This document shows, one piece after another, positions 39,938 to 50,608 of a DNA stretch of 51,878 nt (its first letter is position 1; each line of letters opens with the position of its first letter). Made by a program: the position numbers and the translations under genes. Origin of the DNA: Elusimicrobiales bacterium (lineage in GTDB: Bacteria; Elusimicrobiota; Elusimicrobia; Elusimicrobiales; UBA9959); NCBI GenBank assembly GCA_031082205.1, contig JAVHLJ010000016.1, forward strand, positions 1-51,878. The letters are read 5' to 3'. Below the pieces are notes generated by a model. That model saw only the letters and a program-made list of their open reading frames with translations. It was not told the origin of the DNA and ran no database searches.

Positions 39938-40675
39938 ATGGACGACAAGACCATACACATCTACACCGACGGCGCCTGCTCGGGCAATCCCGGGCCGGGC
40001 GGCTGGGCCGCCGTCCTCATCTTCCCCGACGGGCGCCTGCTGGAACTGGGCGGCGGCGAGCGGGAGACCACCAATAACCGCATGGAGATGGCCGCGGCCA
40101 TAGCCGCGCTGGCGGCCGTGCAGGAGCACGCCGAACCCGTGAAGCTCCACACCGATTCCGGCCTGCTGGTCAACGGCATAAAAGCCTGGATACACGCCTG
40201 GAAGAAGAAAGGCTGGCTGACGGCCGGCGGACAACCGGTATCCAACCGCGGCCTCTGGGAGCGCCTCGACGCGCTGACCTCGGCCCGGCACGGCCGTCTC
40301 CGCTGGGTGCACATGAAGGGCCACGCCGGCCACGAGGTCAACGAACGCTGCGACGCCATCGCCGTGGCCTTCTCCAGGGGCCTGCGCCCGAAGCTCTACG
40401 AAGGCCCGGCCGTGGGCTGCGGCTATTCGCTGCTGCCGCCCGGCGAGGAGCACCTGCACGCCGCGGGAGGCAAAAGCTCTTCCGGAAAGTCCTCGAAGCC
40501 GAAGCCGAAAAAAGGCGGCTACTATCTCTCTTTCGCGGGCGGGGCCGTCCACCGCGACGCCGACTGGGAAACCTGCAAGTCCCGCGTGCACGGCGTCCCC
40601 AACGCCAAGTTCAAGAAAGTCTCGTCTCCCGACGAGGAAAAAGCCGCCCTCCAACTCTGGGGCGCCGCGCGCTGA
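39938..40675 (+). CDS. rnhA: Ribonuclease HI with C-terminal viroplasmin-like domain
   Basis: 245 residues. Residues 1-150 are RNase HI, which degrades RNA in RNA-DNA hybrids. The catalytic acids are D11 (IYTDGACSGNPGPGGW), E50 (TNNRMEM), D73 (HTDSGLL) and D139 (NERCDAIA), with the loop histidine in KGHAGHEVN. After a Ser/Lys-rich linker (about 165-190) comes a 45-residue unit, GGYYLSFAGGAVHRDADWE followed by VHGVPNAKFKKVSS. This matches the caulimovirus viroplasmin fold that binds hybrid nucleic acid. In eukaryotic RNase H1 this hybrid-binding domain is N-terminal; here the order is reversed. Confidence 0.9.
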   Translation: MDDKTIHIYTDGACSGNPGPGGWAAVLIFPDGRLLELGGGERETTNNRMEMAAAIAALAAVQEHAEPVKLHTDSGLLVNGIKAWIHAWKKKGWLTAGGQPVSNRGLWERLDALTSARHGRLRWVHMKGHAGHEVNERCDAIAVAFSRGLRPKLYEGPAVGCGYSLLPPGEEHLHAAGGKSSSGKSSKPKPKKGGYYLSFAGGAVHRDADWETCKSRVHGVPNAKFKKVSSPDEEKAALQLWGAAR

Positions 40676-41528: not shown

Positions 41529-41972
41529 ATGCTCAAGGACTTCAAGGAATTCGTGATGCGCGGCAACGTCGTCGACATGGCCGTAGGCGTCATCATAGGC
41601 GGCGCCTTCGGCAAGATCGTGACCTCGCTGGTCAACGACGTCCTCATGCCGCCGATAGGCAGGCTGACCGGGGGAGTGGATTTTTCAAGCCTGTTCATAG
41701 ACCTCTCCGGCGCCTCCTACGCCACGCTGGCCGAGGCGCAGAAAGCGGGCGCCGCCACCATCAACTACGGGATGTTCATAAACACCGTCATCAACTTCCT
41801 GATAGTGGCCGGAGCCATCTTCCTGATGATCAGCCAGCTCAACCGCCTCAAGGCGCGCTTCGACAAGCCCGCCCCGGCGGCCGAGCCGGTCACCAAGGAG
41901 TGCCCGCTCTGCCTGTCCGTCATACCGGTAAAGGCCGTCAAGTGCGCCCATTGCGCCTCCGACCTCGGATAA
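41529..41972 (+). CDS. mscL: Large-conductance mechanosensitive channel MscL with C-terminal zinc ribbon
   Basis: 147 residues, AAGGAG upstream. Opens under membrane tension to release solutes. The N-terminus [20 protein letters not shown] and pore helix [20 protein letters not shown] are canonical, and TM2 follows ([19 protein letters not shown]). After the usual cytoplasmic helix is [18 protein letters not shown], a four-Cys zinc ribbon seen in a subset of MscL proteins. The E. coli protein (136 residues) lacks it. The ribbon may sense metal or redox state or stabilise the cytoplasmic bundle. Confidence 0.94.
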
Positions 41973-41994
41973 GGCTAAAGAGGAATCGGATGTA

Positions 41995-42020
41995 GGGCTC
42001 CCGCGGGGGAGCCCTTTTTT
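41995..42020 (+). terminator. Intrinsic terminator
   Basis: GGGCTCCC (41995-42002), loop GCGG, GGGAGCCC (42007-42014), six T. Confidence 0.9.
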
Positions 42021-42039
42021 CATCGCGCCCGCCAAATGT

Positions 42040-42045
42040 TAGAAT
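42040..42045 (+). promoter_or_regulatory. -10 box giving near-leaderless DMT transporter mRNA
   Basis: TAGAAT ends 10 nt before the ATG at 42056; no ribosome site. Confidence 0.5.
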
Positions 42046-42055
42046 TCCATACGCG

Positions 42056-43099
42056 ATGAACGCCGGAACCGCCATACTTCCCGTAGCCGGGGCCCTGCTG
42101 GCCGCCCTCTTCTTCGGCGTCTCCACGCCGCTGAGCAAGCCGCTAACGGGCTCTCTCGGCGCCTTCACGCTGGCCGGCCTGCTCTACCTGGGGGCCGGGC
42201 TGGGACTGGCGGCGCTGGAGCCTTTCAGGCGGCGGCCGGCCGTCCCCGCGGGGCGCCGCCTCAACCGCAAATATGTCGCCGGCATGATAGTCTTCGGCGG
42301 CCTCCTGGGCCCGGTATTTCTGATGCTGGCGATAAAGCGCGCCCCGGCGGCCTCGGTCGCCATCTGGCTCAACATGGAGCTCATCGCCACCGCCCTGCTT
42401 GGCTGGCTGCTTTTCAAGGACCACCTGCACGCCCGCGGCTGGCTGAGCGTCGCCATAACCCTGGCGGCGGGCCTCATGCTTTCCTATGACGGCGGCGCCG
42501 CGGGCCTGGCCGCCGGCGGCCTCACCGCGCTTGCCTGCCTCTGCTGGGGGTTCGACAACCATTTCACCGCCCTTATAGACGACCTCTCTCCGTCGCGCAG
42601 CACCATGATAAAAGGCCTGGCCGCCGGCGGCACCAACCTGCTCATCGGCCTGGCGCTGGCCGGCTGGACCCCGCCGCCCGCCGGGCCGGTCATCAAGGCC
42701 CTGCTCGTCGGCTTCGTCAGCTACGGCCTCAGCATAACCCTCTACATCGCCTCCGCGCAGAAGCTGGGCGCGGTACGCAGCCAGCTGGCCTTCTCCACCG
42801 CCCCGGTGTTCGGCGTGGTCCTGTCGGTGCTGCTGCTGGGCGAAGGGCTTTCCGCCGTGCAGATCGTATCGGGGGCGCTGCTGTTCGGCTCGGTGCTGCT
42901 GATGATGTCCGAGAAGCACGCCCACGCGCATATCCACGCGGCGATGGACCATTCCCATTCCCATACTCACGACGACCTGCACCACGGCCACTCCCACGAC
43001 GGGGCTCCGGCGGGGGAACATTCGCATTTCCACCGCCACGAGCCGGCCGAGCACGAGCACCCCCACTGGCCCGACCTGCATCACCGCCACGGGCACTAG
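42056..43099 (+). CDS. EamA/DMT-family transporter with a histidine-rich C-terminal tail
   Basis: 347 residues. Ten hydrophobic segments in two EamA halves fill residues 8-283 (FFGVSTPLSKPL near the start, APAASVAIWLNMELIATALLG in the first half, LAFSTAPVFGVVLSVLLLGE in the second). The last 62 residues contain 23 histidines in HxH and HHxH patterns. Such tails are typical of ZIP, CDF and NiCoT metal transporters, not of ordinary DMT exporters. The tail suggests binding of Zn, Ni or Co at the cytoplasmic face, and a role in metal efflux or metal-regulated transport. The following secreted-protein gene begins 10 nt later. Confidence 0.82.
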   Translation: MNAGTAILPVAGALLAALFFGVSTPLSKPLTGSLGAFTLAGLLYLGAGLGLAALEPFRRRPAVPAGRRLNRKYVAGMIVFGGLLGPVFLMLAIKRAPAASVAIWLNMELIATALLGWLLFKDHLHARGWLSVAITLAAGLMLSYDGGAAGLAAGGLTALACLCWGFDNHFTALIDDLSPSRSTMIKGLAAGGTNLLIGLALAGWTPPPAGPVIKALLVGFVSYGLSITLYIASAQKLGAVRSQLAFSTAPVFGVVLSVLLLGEGLSAVQIVSGALLFGSVLLMMSEKHAHAHIHAAMDHSHSHTHDDLHHGHSHDGAPAGEHSHFHRHEPAEHEHPHWPDLHHRHGH

Positions 43100-43109
43100 G
43101 ACGGCACTT

Positions 43110-43838
43110 ATGGGATCTTTCCTTACCGCGGCGATACTGCTCTCCCTGGCCGCGCCTGGCGCTGCGGGGGAGACCTGCCTGCTCAAAATGATGGCGGTCA
43201 ACGGGGGGGTCTCGTACTCGCATGACCTGCCGGTGGAGCCGGGGGAGCGGGCCTCTTATCACGGTCCGGCCAGGCGGCGGGGCCGCGGCCCGCTGCGCGA
43301 CATAATATTCAACGCCCTGCTCAACGAGGCGGGAAAAGGCGGGTTCCGCCTGGACTACCAGGTGGAGGTCGCCGAGGAGAAAGGCCCCAGGCCGCCTTTC
43401 CAGGCGCAGGGCAAGGCGCTGCTGCGCCCCGGCAGCCAGCTGCTGGCCGCCTCGGCCGGCGGGTGGAAGTATTACCTTAAACTGGAGGGGGAGGCCTGCG
43501 GGGAAGCCTACGAGGGCAAAAGGCCGGGCACGCTGACGGCGGCCCTGAAATGCGGCCGCCACAGCTACCCGGTCGGCTTCTCCTACCTGACCAACGAACA
43601 GTACAGCGCCGTGCTCTATTCCGAGGACGGCGACAAGGTCACCCGCTTCATGATAGGCCTGCTGCCGGGCGGCGCTGCTTTCGACGGGACCTTCCCGGTG
43701 CAGTACGTCGTGCAGCTCAAAGAAGGGGGAAAGACCATCGCCGACAATTCCGGCGGAGCGATTCTCTCGCCCGGCGGCGGCGCGGCCAAAGCTTCCGCCG
43801 GCCCCGGCTGTTCCTTCACCGTCAAGGCGGGCAGATGA
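43110..43838 (+). CDS. Secreted protein of unknown function
   Basis: 242 residues. Signal peptide about 1-20 (ILLSLAAPGAAG). The mature protein is beta-rich with four cysteines. It contains SHDLPVEPGERASYHG, NALLNEAGKGGFRLDYQVE and TRFMIGLLPGGAAFDG. It has no recognised domain. It starts 10 nt after the His-tailed transporter and overlaps the next secreted protein by 4 bp (ATGA), so all three probably form one unit, possibly with a metal-related periplasmic role. Confidence 0.65.
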   Translation: MGSFLTAAILLSLAAPGAAGETCLLKMMAVNGGVSYSHDLPVEPGERASYHGPARRRGRGPLRDIIFNALLNEAGKGGFRLDYQVEVAEEKGPRPPFQAQGKALLRPGSQLLAASAGGWKYYLKLEGEACGEAYEGKRPGTLTAALKCGRHSYPVGFSYLTNEQYSAVLYSEDGDKVTRFMIGLLPGGAAFDGTFPVQYVVQLKEGGKTIADNSGGAILSPGGGAAKASAGPGCSFTVKAGR

Positions 43839-44518
43839 GGAGGCGCATCGTGAAAGGACTGACGCTGCCGTTGATGCTGACCGCCCTGGCCGCGCCCGCC
43901 TCGGCGGGCGTGTCCTGCGCGGACCTGGAAAAGCAGTTCTCGGAGCTCTACCGCCACGTCGGGACCTCCTGCGCGGAACACCGCGACTGCGTACTGGGCG
44001 ATTACGACTGGGACCCCTGCGTCGCGAAGGCGGTCTCGAAAGAGCAGATCATCGGCAATTTCGCGGAGACCCGGGCCGGGATGCACCGCCTCTGCGGCTA
44101 CGTGGCGAAGCCCTGCCCGGCGGTCATCGAGCCGGTCTACTGCGTCAAGAAGAAGTGCGCGATGAGCGGAGAACTGCTCAAGCGGCACCCCGTGCTGCGA
44201 TTCCGGGTCCCTTCGGTAAAGAACGGAGAATTCACCCTGCACGCCGATACCGGTATACGTTGCGCTACGGCCCCCTGCCCGGCCTCGGAAGAAATATACA
44301 GGGGCCGCGTAAAGAACCACCGCTTCACCCTGCCGCTCACCCTCTTCCTGACTGAGGAGCCGGGAAAAAAGCCGGAGGACGGCAGGCCCGCGGCGCGCCG
44401 GCAGTCCAGGCCGGGGCCGGAGACCAGAAGGTGGTTCATGATAGGCGGCAAGGCGGCGGGCGCCGACATAAGGGCCTGGATAAAGGACCTTCCCGACGAG
44501 ATAACGCTGAACCCCTGA
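43835..44518 (+). CDS. Secreted Cys-rich protein of unknown function
   Basis: 227 residues from ATG 43835. A GTG at 43850 has a better ribosome site (GGAGG about 7 nt before) and is a fair alternative. Signal peptide ends near ASAG. The N-terminal half has many cysteines spaced for disulfides (VSCADLEKQF, TSCAEHRDCVLG, DPCVAKAV, KPCPAV, VYCVKKKCAM). The C-terminal half includes CATAPCPASEEIYRG and beta strands. The Cys-rich half resembles small secreted inhibitor-like modules only in general style. Confidence 0.65.
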   Translation: MRRRIVKGLTLPLMLTALAAPASAGVSCADLEKQFSELYRHVGTSCAEHRDCVLGDYDWDPCVAKAVSKEQIIGNFAETRAGMHRLCGYVAKPCPAVIEPVYCVKKKCAMSGELLKRHPVLRFRVPSVKNGEFTLHADTGIRCATAPCPASEEIYRGRVKNHRFTLPLTLFLTEEPGKKPEDGRPAARRQSRPGPETRRWFMIGGKAAGADIRAWIKDLPDEITLNP

Positions 44519-45155: not shown

Positions 45156-45205
45156 AGCCATAGCGCCGACTTACAGGGCCTCACGCAAGCACGTCAGGAG
45201 TGGCT

Positions 45206-48200
45206 ATGCCCAGAACCAACCCTTCCGCCGCCGCCAGGATGCTTCCTCTCAACACTTGGGAGAGGATAAAGGCCCAGCTCGCCGCCTCCCGGGAAGAACC
45301 GGACCAGGAAAAGAAGATAGACCTGCTGGTGGAACTGCTGGTCAACCTCCGCCTCCTCGACAAGGAGGAGCGGGTGCCCGACGCGCGCGAGGCCAAGGGC
45401 GACATAGACGCCATCCATAAGGACCTCCTCGAAGAGACTAAGCGCACGCTCGACGCCGTGCGAGATCCCTCCGACGAATATCTCTACTACGCGCGCGAGC
45501 TGCTCAAGAAACTGCCGGTGCGCGGAGGCGACGGCGCCCTGATAGACGACATCCGCGGCGCGGCCGAATATTTCGAGGAAGGCCGCGACGGCGACGACCC
45601 GCTGCTCTCCTTCGCAGGCGACCTGCGCAAGGAGGTGCACCGCAAGCTCTCGCCCCGCATACTTACCCGCTACATCGGGCCCTACCTGGCGCTGATACGC
45701 GACCGCGACCCGGACCCGCTCTTCAAGGCCGGCTACATGGCCCTGGCCACCACCTTCGACCCCTCCGCCGAGGACCCTCGCTTCATAGAGCTGGCCGAAG
45801 AGATGGAGGAGAAGCTCTCCTACCTCTGGGATTACCGGACCGGCGACATCTCCGCGGTCAAGGAGAACCTGCGGCGGAACCTGGACCTCTTCGGGAAGTG
45901 CTTCCTGCGCAAGGAGATGGAGACCTTCCTCTCCATCTGCGAGCACGGGCGCATAGCCGACACCGACAACCTCATAGACTGCCTGCGGCGCCTGCGCAGC
46001 TTCAAGACGCTGATCAAGAAGTCCTACTTCGAGGGGCGCATCAGCCTCTACCATTTCCTCGACCTGGACCTCTACCTGGGCCGGCTGGTCTTCATCTTCA
46101 CCAACGACCTGACCAACAGCCGCTACGAGACGGTCGATTACGCCAATCTCAAGGACTGCGTGGCGCTGGTCAGGGAGCTGGTCTCGCTGATGGCCCTCAA
46201 GGGCATGCTGCCGGGCAAGGCCGACGAATTCTCCGCGGAACTGACCGCGATCTGCGAGATGGAGACCGTCGACATCATAAAGACGAAGCGGGTCCTGCAG
46301 GGCGTCTCGATGGAGCTGCAGCATTTCATGCGCGGCAATATCTTCAAGCGGCTCAGCCGCATGCTCAACAACGTCCTGGAGGTCTACAAGATCCCCACGG
46401 CCAGCGCGGCGCCGGTAAAGGACCGCTTCTTCAATAATTTCTTCCGCACAACCGAGTTCCACGCCGTCGACGAGTTCATCGAGAAGACCATAGGCTTCCT
46501 CAACCGCGAGCTGGCGGCCCGCGGCGCCGAGAACAGCCTCTACGGCCGCTACAGGATGGCCAGCCTGCCGCCGGTGGAGGGGAACTACGACGCCTTCATC
46601 GCCTCCACCTGGACGCCCGCCGACGACCGGCTGCGGCCGTTCCTGGGCGGCAAGGGCAACGGCATCATAGACATGGCCTCGCTCGGAGTGAAAGTGCCGC
46701 CGGCCTTCATCCTGGGCCTGCCCATCTGCGCGGAGCTTTTCAGGGAGAACGCAGACCGCCACGCCTTCAGGGAGGCCGTCGGCCGCTGGCTGGGCCAATT
46801 GGAGGAAAAGACGGGGCGGCGGCTGGGCTCGCCGGAGAACCCGCTGCTGGTCTCGGTGCGCTCGGGCACCACCATCTCGCTGCCCGGCTCCATGTGCACC
46901 ATACTCAACGCCGGCCTGACCCCGGCGATACGAAAAGAACTGGCCGGGAAGCACGGCGAGGCCTTCGCCTCGGCCGTCTACCTGCGCTTCCTGCGCAATG
47001 TCCTGGCCGCCCTGGAGGCCGACGGGCCGGCGCGGCCCGGGCAGCCCGAGGCCGCCGCGGACCAGGCGGAGCGGCTGGTCAGGGAGAAGCTGGGCGCCGC
47101 TTTCCTGGAAGACCCCTTCGAGCAGCTGCTCAAATGCGTGGACCTGGTCTTCGCCTCCAGCCGCTCCCATAATGTCCGGGAGTACCTCAAGGAACTCTCG
47201 ATAGAGGTCAACTTCGGCACCGCCGTGACCGTGCAGCAGATGGTCTTCGGCAACAGGAGCGCCGCCTCGATGAGCGGCGTCATCTTCACCCGCAACCCCA
47301 TCAACGGCAGCGACGAGCTCTTCGGCGAGTACCGCGAGATGACGCAGGGCGAGGACGTGGTGATGGGCAACGTCGTCACCCGGGGCATAGCCACCATCCC
47401 GCCGAAGATACGGGCGGGCCTGGAGAAGTACAAGGCCCTGCTGGAGCGCCATCTCAAGCACGAACTGGACCTGGAGTTCACCGTCGAGGACGACGAGCTC
47501 TACCTGCTGCAGGCCCGCCGCGCCACGGTGAGCACCTACGCGCGGCTCGTCATCGACACCGACCTGATGAAGAAGGGCGTCATCAGCGTCTACGAATACC
47601 GCGGCCGCATAGACCGGCTCTGCGCGGGCAACGCCTACGTCTCCGTGCCGCGCAACGACAGCGGGGCCCGCGAATGGAAGCCGCCGGTGGGCACCGGCGT
47701 GCCGATAAACCACGGCATCGCCTGGGGCCGCCTGGCGCTGACGCCGGAGCGTTTCGAGGAATTCCGCGCCGGCCGCGAGAACATCATCTACCTGGCCGAG
47801 ACCACCAAGCCCTCGGACTTCAACTTCATAAACAACTCCCAGGGCGTAGTCACCGTCTTCCCCGGCCGCACCTCGCACGCCGCCATCACCTCCATCACGC
47901 TCAACAAGCCCTGCGTGGTCGGCTGCGCCAACGCCGTCATAAACCCGGAGCAGGGCACGGTGACCTTCAAGGGCGAGCCCGACGTGACGCTCAGGGAGGG
48001 AGAGCTGGTGACCGTGGACGCCAACGGCGGCTACGTCTACCGCGGCGCGGTGCCGCTCTCCGACAGCTTCATCAAGACCCACAACATCCTCGAGACGCTC
48101 ACGCACGCCATGTCGCCCGAGTCGGCCGCCGCCGAGGTGGAGCGCATACTGCGCGAGCGCATCGAGATAATGACGCGCGAGACCGGCATACGCAAGAAGA

Positions 48201-49423
48201 ACATCTCCGGCGCGGACAAAGCCCTCTTCGCGGGGAAGAACGTGCTGGTGCGCCTGGACCTCAATGTGCCGTTCGCCAAGGGCGGGGTGGCCGACGCCGC
48301 GCGCATAGAGGCCGCGCTGCCGACGGTGAAATACCTGCTCGAGGCCGGCGCCACGCCGGTGCTCTGCTCCCATTTCGGCGAGCCCGACAAGCAGGAGAAG
48401 AAAGGCAAGTCGCGCGAGGAGGTCTACGAGCGGCACAGCCTGCGCCCGGTGGCCGACTACATGCGGGCCCGCCACCTGCCGGACCTGGTCTTCCACGAGG
48501 GCAGCATCGCCTCCTCCGGCGTCCTGGTATCGAAGGCCGCCATAGTGAAGGGCAGGCCCAACATGCTCGAGAACCTCCGCTTCGCCATAGGCGAGAAGGA
48601 GAACGACTCGGTCTTCGCCCGCGGCCTGGCGGGGCTCTCCGACGGGATCTACGTCAACGACGCCTTCGGCACCTGCCACCGCCGCCACGCCTCCATCACG
48701 GGCGTGACCAGGCATGTCGAACACCGGCTGGCCGGCCTGCTGATAGAGAAGGAACTCAGGTACCTGGGCGGCGCGGTCAGCGAGCCCAAACGCCCCTTCG
48801 TCGGCATAACCGGCGGCTCCAAGATCTCGAGCAAGCTGGGCGTCATCGAGTCGCTGCTGCAGAAGATAGACACGCTGATAGTGGGCGGCGGCATCGGCTA
48901 CACGCTGCTCAAGGCCAGGGGCTTCGACGTGCAGAAGTCGCTGGTGGAAGAGGCCATGCTCGACACGGCCAGGAAACTGCTGCAGAAGCACGGCGACAAG
49001 ATAGTCCTGCCGACCGACTTCGTCGTCACCGATAAGTTCGATTTCGCCGCCCAGAAGGTGGGGGAACTGCGCCGCGACGTGAAGGTCATCCCCGAAGGCT
49101 GGGAATCGTTCGACCTCGGCAAAGAATCGCTCGACCACGCCGTGAAGCTGCTCTCGGAGGCCGGCACCGTCCTCTGGAACGGCCCGATAGGCGCTTTCGA
49201 GATAAAGGAAGGCTCGGAGGGGACCATGCGTCTGGCCCGCGAGCTGGCCGTCATGGCGGAGAAGGGCAAGACCGTCATCATCGGCGGCGGCGACTCGGCC
49301 TCGGCCGTGCGCATCGCCGGCGTGGCGGACAAGATGACCCACGTCTCCACCGGCGGCGGCGCGAGCCTGGAGTTTTTGGAACGCCTCACGTTGCCGGGTA
49401 TCTCGGCGCTGGACTCGGAGTAA
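45206..49423 (+). CDS. Fusion: unknown helical domain + PPDK-type ATP-grasp and phosphohistidine domains + complete phosphoglycerate kinase
   Basis: 1405 residues from ATG 45206 (AGGAG 5 nt before; GTG 45200 is an alternative). Residues 1-430 are helical and unrecognised. Residues 470-775 match the PPDK nucleotide-binding domain: LGGKGNGIIDMASLGVKVPP (about 480), VSVRSGTTISLPGSM (550), QQMVFGN (678), FTRNP (695), FTVEDDELYLLQARR (760). The swivelling domain has GRTSHAAITS with phosphoacceptor His891. The PEP/pyruvate barrel is absent; after a linker, residues 1012-1405 are a full PGK: VRLDLNVP, LENLRF, NDAFGTCHRRHAS, TGGSKISSKLGVIE, WNGPIGAF, GGGDSASAV, STGGGASLEF. SHLGRP is changed to SHFGEP. 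PGK activity is likely. The dikinase acceptor is unknown. Confidence 0.9.
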   Translation: MPRTNPSAAARMLPLNTWERIKAQLAASREEPDQEKKIDLLVELLVNLRLLDKEERVPDAREAKGDIDAIHKDLLEETKRTLDAVRDPSDEYLYYARELLKKLPVRGGDGALIDDIRGAAEYFEEGRDGDDPLLSFAGDLRKEVHRKLSPRILTRYIGPYLALIRDRDPDPLFKAGYMALATTFDPSAEDPRFIELAEEMEEKLSYLWDYRTGDISAVKENLRRNLDLFGKCFLRKEMETFLSICEHGRIADTDNLIDCLRRLRSFKTLIKKSYFEGRISLYHFLDLDLYLGRLVFIFTNDLTNSRYETVDYANLKDCVALVRELVSLMALKGMLPGKADEFSAELTAICEMETVDIIKTKRVLQGVSMELQHFMRGNIFKRLSRMLNNVLEVYKIPTASAAPVKDRFFNNFFRTTEFHAVDEFIEKTIGFLNRELAARGAENSLYGRYRMASLPPVEGNYDAFIASTWTPADDRLRPFLGGKGNGIIDMASLGVKVPPAFILGLPICAELFRENADRHAFREAVGRWLGQLEEKTGRRLGSPENPLLVSVRSGTTISLPGSMCTILNAGLTPAIRKELAGKHGEAFASAVYLRFLRNVLAALEADGPARPGQPEAAADQAERLVREKLGAAFLEDPFEQLLKCVDLVFASSRSHNVREYLKELSIEVNFGTAVTVQQMVFGNRSAASMSGVIFTRNPINGSDELFGEYREMTQGEDVVMGNVVTRGIATIPPKIRAGLEKYKALLERHLKHELDLEFTVEDDELYLLQARRATVSTYARLVIDTDLMKKGVISVYEYRGRIDRLCAGNAYVSVPRNDSGAREWKPPVGTGVPINHGIAWGRLALTPERFEEFRAGRENIIYLAETTKPSDFNFINNSQGVVTVFPGRTSHAAITSITLNKPCVVGCANAVINPEQGTVTFKGEPDVTLREGELVTVDANGGYVYRGAVPLSDSFIKTHNILETLTHAMSPESAAAEVERILRERIEIMTRETGIRKKNISGADKALFAGKNVLVRLDLNVPFAKGGVADAARIEAALPTVKYLLEAGATPVLCSHFGEPDKQEKKGKSREEVYERHSLRPVADYMRARHLPDLVFHEGSIASSGVLVSKAAIVKGRPNMLENLRFAIGEKENDSVFARGLAGLSDGIYVNDAFGTCHRRHASITGVTRHVEHRLAGLLIEKELRYLGGAVSEPKRPFVGITGGSKISSKLGVIESLLQKIDTLIVGGGIGYTLLKARGFDVQKSLVEEAMLDTARKLLQKHGDKIVLPTDFVVTDKFDFAAQKVGELRRDVKVIPEGWESFDLGKESLDHAVKLLSEAGTVLWNGPIGAFEIKEGSEGTMRLARELAVMAEKGKTVIIGGGDSASAVRIAGVADKMTHVSTGGGASLEFLERLTLPGISALDSE

Positions 49424-49426
49424 AAG

Positions 49427-50608
49427 ATGCAAAAGATGTTAGAAGCGTTCCTGACCTCGCTGCGGCTGGGGCTGACCTCTTTCGGCGGGCCCATAGCGCA
49501 CCTGGGCTATTTCGAGCGGACCTATGTGCGCGAGAAAGGCTGGCTGACGCCCGAGGAATATTCGCAGACTGTGGCCCTCTGCCAGCTGCTGCCCGGGCCG
49601 GCCAGCAGCCAGGCGAACTTCCTCATCGGCGTGCGGCGGGCCGGCCTGGCGGGCGGGCTGCTGTCCTGGGCAGGCTTCACGCTGCCCTCGGCGCTGGCGC
49701 TCTACGCCTTCGCCGTCTTCGCGCCGGCCGCGCACGGGCCGCTGATGGCGGCCGCGCTGCACGGGCTCAAGCTGGTGGCCGTGGCCATAGTGACGCACGC
49801 CGTCTGGGGCATGGCGCCCAAACTCTGCCCCGACCGCGAACGCACCGGCATAGCCCTGGGGGCGCTGTCGGCCCTGCTCCTTTTCGGCGGCGCCTTCATG
49901 CAGATAGCCGTCATAGTCCTGGGCGCGGCCGCGGGCTCGCTGCTCTGCCGCGGCGCCGCGCCGGTGTCCGGCGCGCAGAGTTCCTCCATAGGCGGGAAAG
50001 CGGCCTGGGCCGCCGGCGCCGCCTTCGCGCTGCTCCTGGCCCTGCTGCCGCTGCTGGCGGCGGAGCGGCCCGGCGGACTGACGGCCATAGCCGACCTGTT
50101 CTACCGCGCGGGCGCGCTGGTCTTCGGCGGCGGCCACGTAGTGCTGCCGCTGCTGCGCGACGCCCTGGTGCCGCCCGGCCTGCTCACCGACGACGCCTTC
50201 CTGGCCGGCTACGGCGTGGCGCAGGCCGTGCCGGGCCCGCTGTTCACGCTCTCCGCCTACCTGGGCGCGGCCGCCGCCCCGCAGGGCGCGCCGCAGGCCC
50301 TCTGGGCCGCGGCCGCGCTGGCCTTCATCTTCCTGCCCGGCCTGCTCATAGCCGCCGCCGGGGCGCCGCTCTGGCGCTGGCTGTCCGGCCACCCCGCGGC
50401 CCAGGGCGCGCTGGCGGGCATAAACGCCGCCGTGGTGGGCATACTGGGCGCCGCGCTCTACGATCCCGTCTGGGTCACGGCCGTGCGCGGCGGCGCGGAC
50501 CTGGCCGTCGCCGCCGTCGCCTTCTTCCTGCTGGAGAAATGGAAAGCCCCGCCGCTGGCCATCGTCGTTTTCTGCGTGGCCGCGGCGGCCGCCGGAATAT
50601 ATTTCTGA
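49427..50608 (+). CDS. chrA: Chromate transporter family protein (long, two-domain ChrA)
   Basis: 393 residues, ATG 3 nt after the fusion gene's stop, so cotranscription is likely. Two homologous chromate-transporter halves: N-half SLRLGLTSFGGPIAHLGYF with LCQLLPGPASSQ, and C-half GALVFGGGHVVLPLLRDAL with AQAVPGPLFTLSAYLG. About ten to twelve membrane segments. The family exports chromate or related oxyanions (or acts as sulfate-type antiporter); substrate here is untested. The link to a phosphotransfer enzyme is not understood. Confidence 0.9.
   Translation: MQKMLEAFLTSLRLGLTSFGGPIAHLGYFERTYVREKGWLTPEEYSQTVALCQLLPGPASSQANFLIGVRRAGLAGGLLSWAGFTLPSALALYAFAVFAPAAHGPLMAAALHGLKLVAVAIVTHAVWGMAPKLCPDRERTGIALGALSALLLFGGAFMQIAVIVLGAAAGSLLCRGAAPVSGAQSSSIGGKAAWAAGAAFALLLALLPLLAAERPGGLTAIADLFYRAGALVFGGGHVVLPLLRDALVPPGLLTDDAFLAGYGVAQAVPGPLFTLSAYLGAAAAPQGAPQALWAAAALAFIFLPGLLIAAAGAPLWRWLSGHPAAQGALAGINAAVVGILGAALYDPVWVTAVRGGADLAVAAVAFFLLEKWKAPPLAIVVFCVAAAAAGIYF

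Follow-up and report, generated by a model that had tools for sequence, protein, structure and literature searches.

What does a membrane transporter do with 23 histidines gathered at its C terminus, and do the two genes that follow it share its task? Both questions are raised by a locus in a 51,878-nucleotide stretch of DNA from an Elusimicrobiales bacterium (contig JAVHLJ010000016.1), the whole of which is called the window here. The original prediction, made from the letters of the sequence, took the three genes for a metal or envelope-stress unit of unknown type.

The transporter gene and its neighbours

The transporter ORF encodes two EamA domains (E 3.3e-27, Pfam). PF00892 matches it in two stretches with a score of 95.8 bits (cut-off, 28.2), which places the protein in the EamA/DMT superfamily, and 23 of its 26 histidines fall within the last 62 residues, so the transporter and its tail are as they were first described. 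The local gene order is mscL, transporter, P0002, P0003, ndk (Table 1). P0002 starts 10 nt past the stop codon of the transporter, P0003 overlaps P0002 by 4 nt (ATGA), and one strand is used throughout, which bears out the claim that overlapping genes follow directly. For P0003, position 43550 is an upstream in-frame ATG and 43835 is the plausible start. A terminator-like hairpin lies between mscL and the transporter; the region holds three terminator-like sites against a mean of 2.5 in shuffled sequences, and the hairpin is therefore weak by itself. Promoter-like sites, counted by consensus match only, number two in the region versus 0.5 expected.

Table 1. Features of the transporter locus, in positions of the window
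Feature	Position	Strand	Remarks
CnrT-like DMT/EamA transporter gene, His-rich C-terminal tail	42056..43099	+	347 aa
Transporter membrane core, residues 1-284, ten hydrophobic segments	42056..42907	+	cytoplasmic ends by charge count
His-rich tail domain, residues 286-347, two repeats of ~27 residues	42911..43096	+	predicted two HxHxHxH beta-hairpins
P0002 (second gene), 242 aa, 4 Cys, probably secreted (by eye)	43110..43838	+	neighbour of transporter
P0003 (third gene), 227 aa, 10 Cys, Cys-rich orphan, probably secreted (by eye)	43835..44518	+	neighbour
Intrinsic terminator-like hairpin and T run, between mscL and transporter	41994..42020	+	9-pair stem 41994-42015
Possible sigma-70-like promoter, TTTTCA-17-TAGAAT, directly 5' of transporter	42017..42045	+	9/12 matches, consensus only

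Both downstream products had been described as Cys-rich and secreted. Their N termini resemble signal peptides by eye, and P0003 is indeed rich in cysteine (10 in 227 residues); P0002, with 4 cysteines in 242 residues, is not, and two of the four are missing in its relatives from genus g4. P0002 is a member of a secreted-looking family of this phylum in which the two halves of the protein look alike by eye; it matches no family in Pfam or NCBIfam. Among the 339 other genomes of the phylum, P0003 has no full-length counterpart, but there is one partial match that extends over 61 residues and contains two stop codons (E 0.0067). In Pfam and NCBIfam its sole match is a weak one to DUF6748 (E 0.11). 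Neither protein has a sequence match in the PDB.

The common strand and the tight spacing (a gap of 10 nt, then an overlap of 4 nt) would fit a three-gene metal or envelope-stress unit, but the company that the genes keep elsewhere argues against one. P0002 adjoins the transporter in three of the four genomes of the genus (G000, G001, and G002, the adjacent copy in G002 being truncated), whereas ndk follows P0002 in all four (by eye in three). In G003, P0002 occurs without the transporter within the stretch that the contig covers (about 600 bases). In every other genome that has both, relatives of P0002 and the transporter lie on different contigs, and among 80 scanned loci of transporter relatives P0002 is found only in that of G001. 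P0003, apart from the partial match, is present in one of 340 genomes of the phylum. We regard such a unit as very improbable, and P0002 and P0003 as local neighbours that are at most co-transcribed with the transporter and are not needed for its export function.

Several other features of the surroundings were recorded, all on the forward strand. The mscL gene (41529-41972) encodes a C-terminal CPLC...CAHC motif resembling a zinc ribbon, with weak matches to zinc-ribbon families of Pfam (E 0.21 and 0.52). Upstream (39938-40675) lies a gene for an RNase HI with an extra C-terminal Cauli_VI domain (the RNase H1 N-terminal type), which scores 21.4 bits against a cut-off of 21. A 1407-aa protein encoded at 45200-49423 combines PPDK-type domains (PPDK_N, PEP-utilizers) with a complete C-terminal phosphoglycerate kinase, and the start of a similar gene, with its first 249 codons in view, follows ndk in G001. 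A chromate transporter gene (PF02417) occupies 49427-50608, 6.3 kb downstream of the transporter; in G002, the start of a similar gene comes behind ndk and a small regulator-like ORF.

Conservation and predicted structure of the tail

When relatives were compared for conservation of the tail and of the neighbours, the tail proved to be conserved and the neighbours did not. Thirty-seven of 61 genomes (that of the window and 60 relatives) match the transporter protein. Thirty loci were fetched, and all 27 from the window's family, the window included, carry the tail. Their last 62 residues contain 15 to 24 histidines, the lowest count coming from a locus (L024) whose sequence holds a run of N. 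The three loci fetched from the sister family f2 have no His tail, and some relatives in f2 and f15 are likewise without it. Among 26 proteins of the window's family, 20 of 22 tested tail columns are histidine in at least 95% of the proteins, and all 20 of these columns mix CAC and CAT codons. Because the histidines are kept while the codons vary, it is the protein and not a DNA repeat that is conserved, and we ruled out chance or a DNA repeat as the source of the tail. The original prediction called such a tail unusual for EamA transporters. This holds within the genome, where the other five EamA proteins have 0 or 1 histidine in their last 62 residues (one tailed protein in six), but not within the subfamily, where the tail is the rule.

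A scan of one genome per species gave 485 alignment relatives, from which the best 80, ranked by likeness to the tailed query, were kept. At least 18 histidines fall within the last 66 aa in 78 of these best 80, a proportion that is not a rate for all 485; the remaining two, L068 and L100, have frames that stop sooner. By their record titles, the 80 include members of the Elusimicrobiota, Omnitrophota, Bacteroidota, Chlorobiota, Cyanobacteriota, Zixibacteria, Spirochaetota, Thermodesulfobacteriota, Actinomycetota, Gemmatimonadota, Chloroflexota, and others. Across 19 tailed proteins, among them CnrT (see below), 46 columns are invariant, 21 of which are tail histidines; across 61 proteins, nineteen tail histidines are invariant. 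The core residues N106, E108, W164, D167, N168, and K186 are invariant in both sets. A profile of the transporter matched 88 of 340 genomes of the phylum (E up to 1e-20), and a profile of the tail alone, searched against the same 340 genomes, matched 71 places in 69 of them (E up to 1e-4). Seventy of the 71 places fall inside a match to the transporter profile; within the phylum, by these profile matches, the tail goes with the transporter. The tail has the look of a folded domain that is conserved and common to many bacterial phyla.

Some variants of this arrangement were also seen. The one tail match of 71 without a transporter match (G215:C46:10775-10951) lies in an open frame of 74 aa, which may be a broken gene or a free-standing tail. 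In G002, the transporter copy next to P0002 (L034, on C91) is 236 aa long, lacks parts of the core, and keeps the tail; a second, full copy stands elsewhere in that genome and is 69% identical to the copy of the window. Genus g15 has a tailed transporter in some species and a tail-less one in others, and so lends itself naturally to comparisons of what the tail does.

The transporter has ten hydrophobic segments, which are predicted to be helices, and lysine and arginine number 14 on the even loops versus 4 on the odd ones, a distribution from which both termini, and hence the tail, are predicted to be cytoplasmic. An AlphaFold2 model of the full protein, built from 61 sequences, has a mean pLDDT of 91.6 and predicts four strands in the tail (288-294, 297-303, 322-328, and 331-337). 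Averaged by block, pLDDT is 89 and 92 for residues 281-300, 76 and 67 for 301-320, and 90 and 86 for 321-340, falling to 60 at the end. Modelled alone from 74 sequences, the tail forms the same four strands (mean pLDDT 75, pTM 0.44). The two halves of the tail are repeats: with one gap, all 11 histidines of the second align on histidines of the first, which none of 5000 shuffles reproduced, although the test is lenient in that shuffling breaks the alternation of histidines. The tail is thus predicted to consist of four HxHxHxH strands in two repeats and not to be a loose chelator, with the caution that the order of this His-rich stretch was modelled without metal. A fold search with the core gave 34 matches to DMT structures at E up to 0.001, the best being 5y78 and 7paf. 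The same search with the tail gave no structure at E up to 0.001 (best E 5.3), and the tail has neither a PDB sequence match nor a Pfam model.

Nineteen histidines invariant across 61 proteins exceed what the pore seems to need, and this surplus leads to an alternative in which the protein is a cytosolic metal buffer or store, the tail sequestering metal and the membrane part serving mainly as an anchor or a slow exporter. The nickel/cobalt exporter RcnA offers a parallel, as it carries a His-rich loop, and the choice between export and chelation is reported to be unsettled for it (PMC11247825). However, the six invariant core residues named above are what a working transporter would show, and CnrT is described as an exporter (PMC9045368). 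We consider the buffer unlikely.

A bolder idea about the structure may be put forward tentatively, as something possible that we do not expect to be the case. The tail may be an uncatalogued two-repeat, all-His beta domain with eleven matched histidines per repeat, forming a multi-metal cluster docked under the two-repeat DMT pore, so that pore and metal loader would both be internal duplications. If this were true, this branch of the DMT superfamily, which extends to more than fifteen phyla by record titles, would be a major overlooked route of nickel export.

Relation to CnrT and the exported metal

A search of plasmids led to CnrT of Cupriavidus metallidurans (pMOL28, NC_007972.2), which lies after cnrCBA and is annotated as a nickel diffusion facilitator. 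It figures in publications as a DMT protein of the inner membrane that exports Ni(II) (PMC11647595, PMC9045368, PMC7019866): one account calls it an inner membrane exporter (PMC9045368), another places it in the DMT family (PMC7019866), and a further one speaks of a nickel-efflux system (PMC10133563). The alignment shows a C-terminal His tail of the CnrT pattern in the window protein. The assignment of the tail to metal, made in the original prediction, is supported by its being shared with a protein described as a nickel exporter. The tail is usual in the subfamily that includes CnrT, and it is therefore not of unknown type, as had been supposed. Proteins from Afipia and Stanieria plasmids have the tail architecture of CnrT. 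Among 30 listed plasmid relatives, 17 are named only as DMT or EamA family proteins and six are named cnrT; tails were read in three.

In a tree of 103 transporter cores (all trees were midpoint-rooted), the window copy falls in a clade of 73 rows (100/99) that does not contain CnrT. It sits there with 10 other Elusimicrobiota copies and one Omnitrophota copy. CnrT stands outside, in a set of 30 rows to which 21 of the 27 copies of the window's family and the tail-less f2 copies also belong. By this tree, the window's family holds two types of transporter, and the type of the window is not on the side of CnrT; the tail-less f2 copies likely lost their tail. When four EamA paralogues from the same genome were added, the window copy was again in a clade without CnrT (98/99) and the tailed group stayed together (96/93); the paralogues have very long branches, and this tree does not resolve the rows beyond the window's clade.

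The genes around the relatives bear on which metal is exported. Our own ORF calls gave 267 proteins within two positions of the transporter at 73 of the 80 loci. Among the first 25 families of each list of near genes there were at least 12 Cation_efflux, 6 OEP, 5 ACR_tran, 4 CbiM, and 4 lactate racemase proteins; among more distant genes of the same loci (n = 89), ACR_tran occurred once and the others were absent from the 25 families listed of 90. Profiles of our own gave near versus far counts of 13 versus 2 for CDF, 4 versus 0 for CbiM, 6 versus 0 for OEP, and four loci versus none for LarA. These profiles were trained on the near genes, and one of the two far CDF proteins is itself a training member. 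By the same profiles, RND genes showed no excess close to the transporter (2 near, 6 far). Taken jointly, CDF, CbiM, and LarA gave P = 0.0002, a value that is far too optimistic because it ignores both the kinship of the loci and this training. All four LarA loci represent a single lineage with transporters 95-96% identical, so lactate racemase was dropped as independent evidence for nickel, and our confidence in the best explanation was lowered slightly. That lineage also accounts for two of the four CbiM loci, and several of the CDF loci are close too. CbiM neighbours represent two lineages, a deltaproteobacterial group and a cyanobacterium, and CDF adjoins the transporter in Bacteroidota, Chlorobiota, Aminicenantes, Cyanobacteriota, and Actinomycetota. 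At most of the 73 loci there is no metal gene by these families.

Two candidate correlates were rejected. CbiM as a partner in the window's own lineage is found in only 6 of 61 genomes, that of the window not among them. NiFe hydrogenase as a correlate of the tail was dropped because the difference runs between genera. A hydrogenase match occurs in 34 of 37 f1 genomes versus 1 of 24 f2 genomes, and in 8 of 18 tailed versus 1 of 16 tail-less cases among 34 further genomes picked from f2 and f15, where tailed means a transporter match that reaches the end of the profile (one of the 18, G216, is unmatched by the tail profile). Within genus g15, however, where the comparison covered 18 of the 20 genomes that have a transporter match, hydrogenase was found in 0 of 6 tailed and 0 of 12 tail-less genomes, and this failure is why it was set aside. 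Counted by hand within f1, hydrogenase matches occur in 28 of the 29 genomes that carry the transporter and in 6 of the 8 that lack it.

Histidine tails can bind several metals, and this breadth is one reason to ask whether zinc, copper, lead, or iron is the main metal instead of nickel or cobalt. The neighbours of the relatives are mostly Cation_efflux, a family with several metals, and the window itself has a chromate transporter gene 6.3 kb downstream. In addition, an EamA gene of a Cupriavidus mmf cluster goes with induction by Pb and Zn (PMC12029693), which we count against nickel or cobalt. Against a metal of this group, CnrT is described as a nickel exporter (PMC11647595), and CbiM (two lineages) and lactate racemase (one) point to nickel or cobalt. 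We hold another metal to be improbable, if less so than a buffer, and we favour nickel or cobalt as the metal exported, on balance and with less confidence than we have in the export of a divalent metal as such.

A third alternative concerns the form in which metal would leave the cell. CntI (PaCntI), a DMT protein with two EamA domains, exports a metallophore (PMC5719457), and the window protein could by comparison export a metal chelate or metallophore, its tail sensing or loading metal. As no metallophore synthesis gene stands among the annotated neighbours of the window gene or the listed neighbour families of its relatives, this seems to us highly unlikely.

Proposed function and comparison with known systems

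We consider it probable that the transporter is a CnrT-like inner-membrane exporter of a divalent metal, because it combines an EamA/DMT core with a conserved His tail shared with CnrT, because tail and transporter are linked within the phylum, and because metal genes stand near some of its relatives. Weighing against it are the modest identity to CnrT, the separate clade, the lack of a cnr-type operon or nickel regulator beside the gene, the tail-less relatives in f2 and f15, and the failure of the tail to track hydrogenase within g15. As a secondary exporter, it would carry its substrate out of the cytoplasm into the periplasm, presumably driven by the proton gradient; the divalent metal moved is most likely Ni(II), and Co(II) may be moved as well. 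The hairpins of the tail would line up histidines on one face and bind several metal ions, and the tail may either retain excess metal close to the pore or pass it along. The conserved core residues N106, E108, D167, and N168 would bind the ion en route.

Exporters of this kind are easily missed, as annotation often names them only DMT or EamA. In a survey of nickel homeostasis in cable bacteria, other Desulfobulbales are reported to have none of NmtA, NreB, DmeF, and RcnA, and neither EamA nor DMT is mentioned in the main text (PMC11247825); Desulfosediminicola flagellatus, a member of the Desulfobulbales, carries a tailed DMT protein (L102). A search of titles and abstract openings, with subscription papers mostly outside it, found no description of this tail. 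Such exporters can be sought with the tail as a simple signature, and the order predicted for it raises the structural question of how some twenty stacked histidines bind and release metal beside a pore. The domain merits a name and a structure.

Several known systems invite comparison. The core of the window protein has the same fold as LicB (7paf, 7b0k) and 5i20, which we take to be YddG, and these are among its best matches; LicB, unlike the proposed exporter, is a choline importer. CntI is likewise an EamA/DMT protein in metal physiology, but by its description, on which this comparison is based, it exports the organic metallophore pseudopaline (PMC5719457). RcnA, the nickel/cobalt exporter, also has a His-rich stretch that is predicted to be cytoplasmic (PMC11247825). 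That stretch is a loop in mid-protein, whereas the tail of the window protein is C-terminal, and no RcnA-type model appears among the Pfam and NCBIfam families listed for it (E up to 1).

CnrT (DMT family, TC 2.A.7) has two EamA domains and a C-terminal tail with the same spacing of histidines, and the tails end alike, with HPHWPDLHHRHGH in the window protein and HPHYPDVHHRHSH in CnrT. The two differ in sequence (~36-40% identity) and in setting: CnrT sits after cnrCBA, whereas the window gene is not the last gene of a cnr-type RND operon, and neither such an operon nor a nickel regulator lies beside it, its neighbours being mscL, the two secreted proteins, and ndk. The window copy falls outside the clade of CnrT, and we therefore call it CnrT-like and not CnrT, a transporter of a kind that is already known but thinly described.
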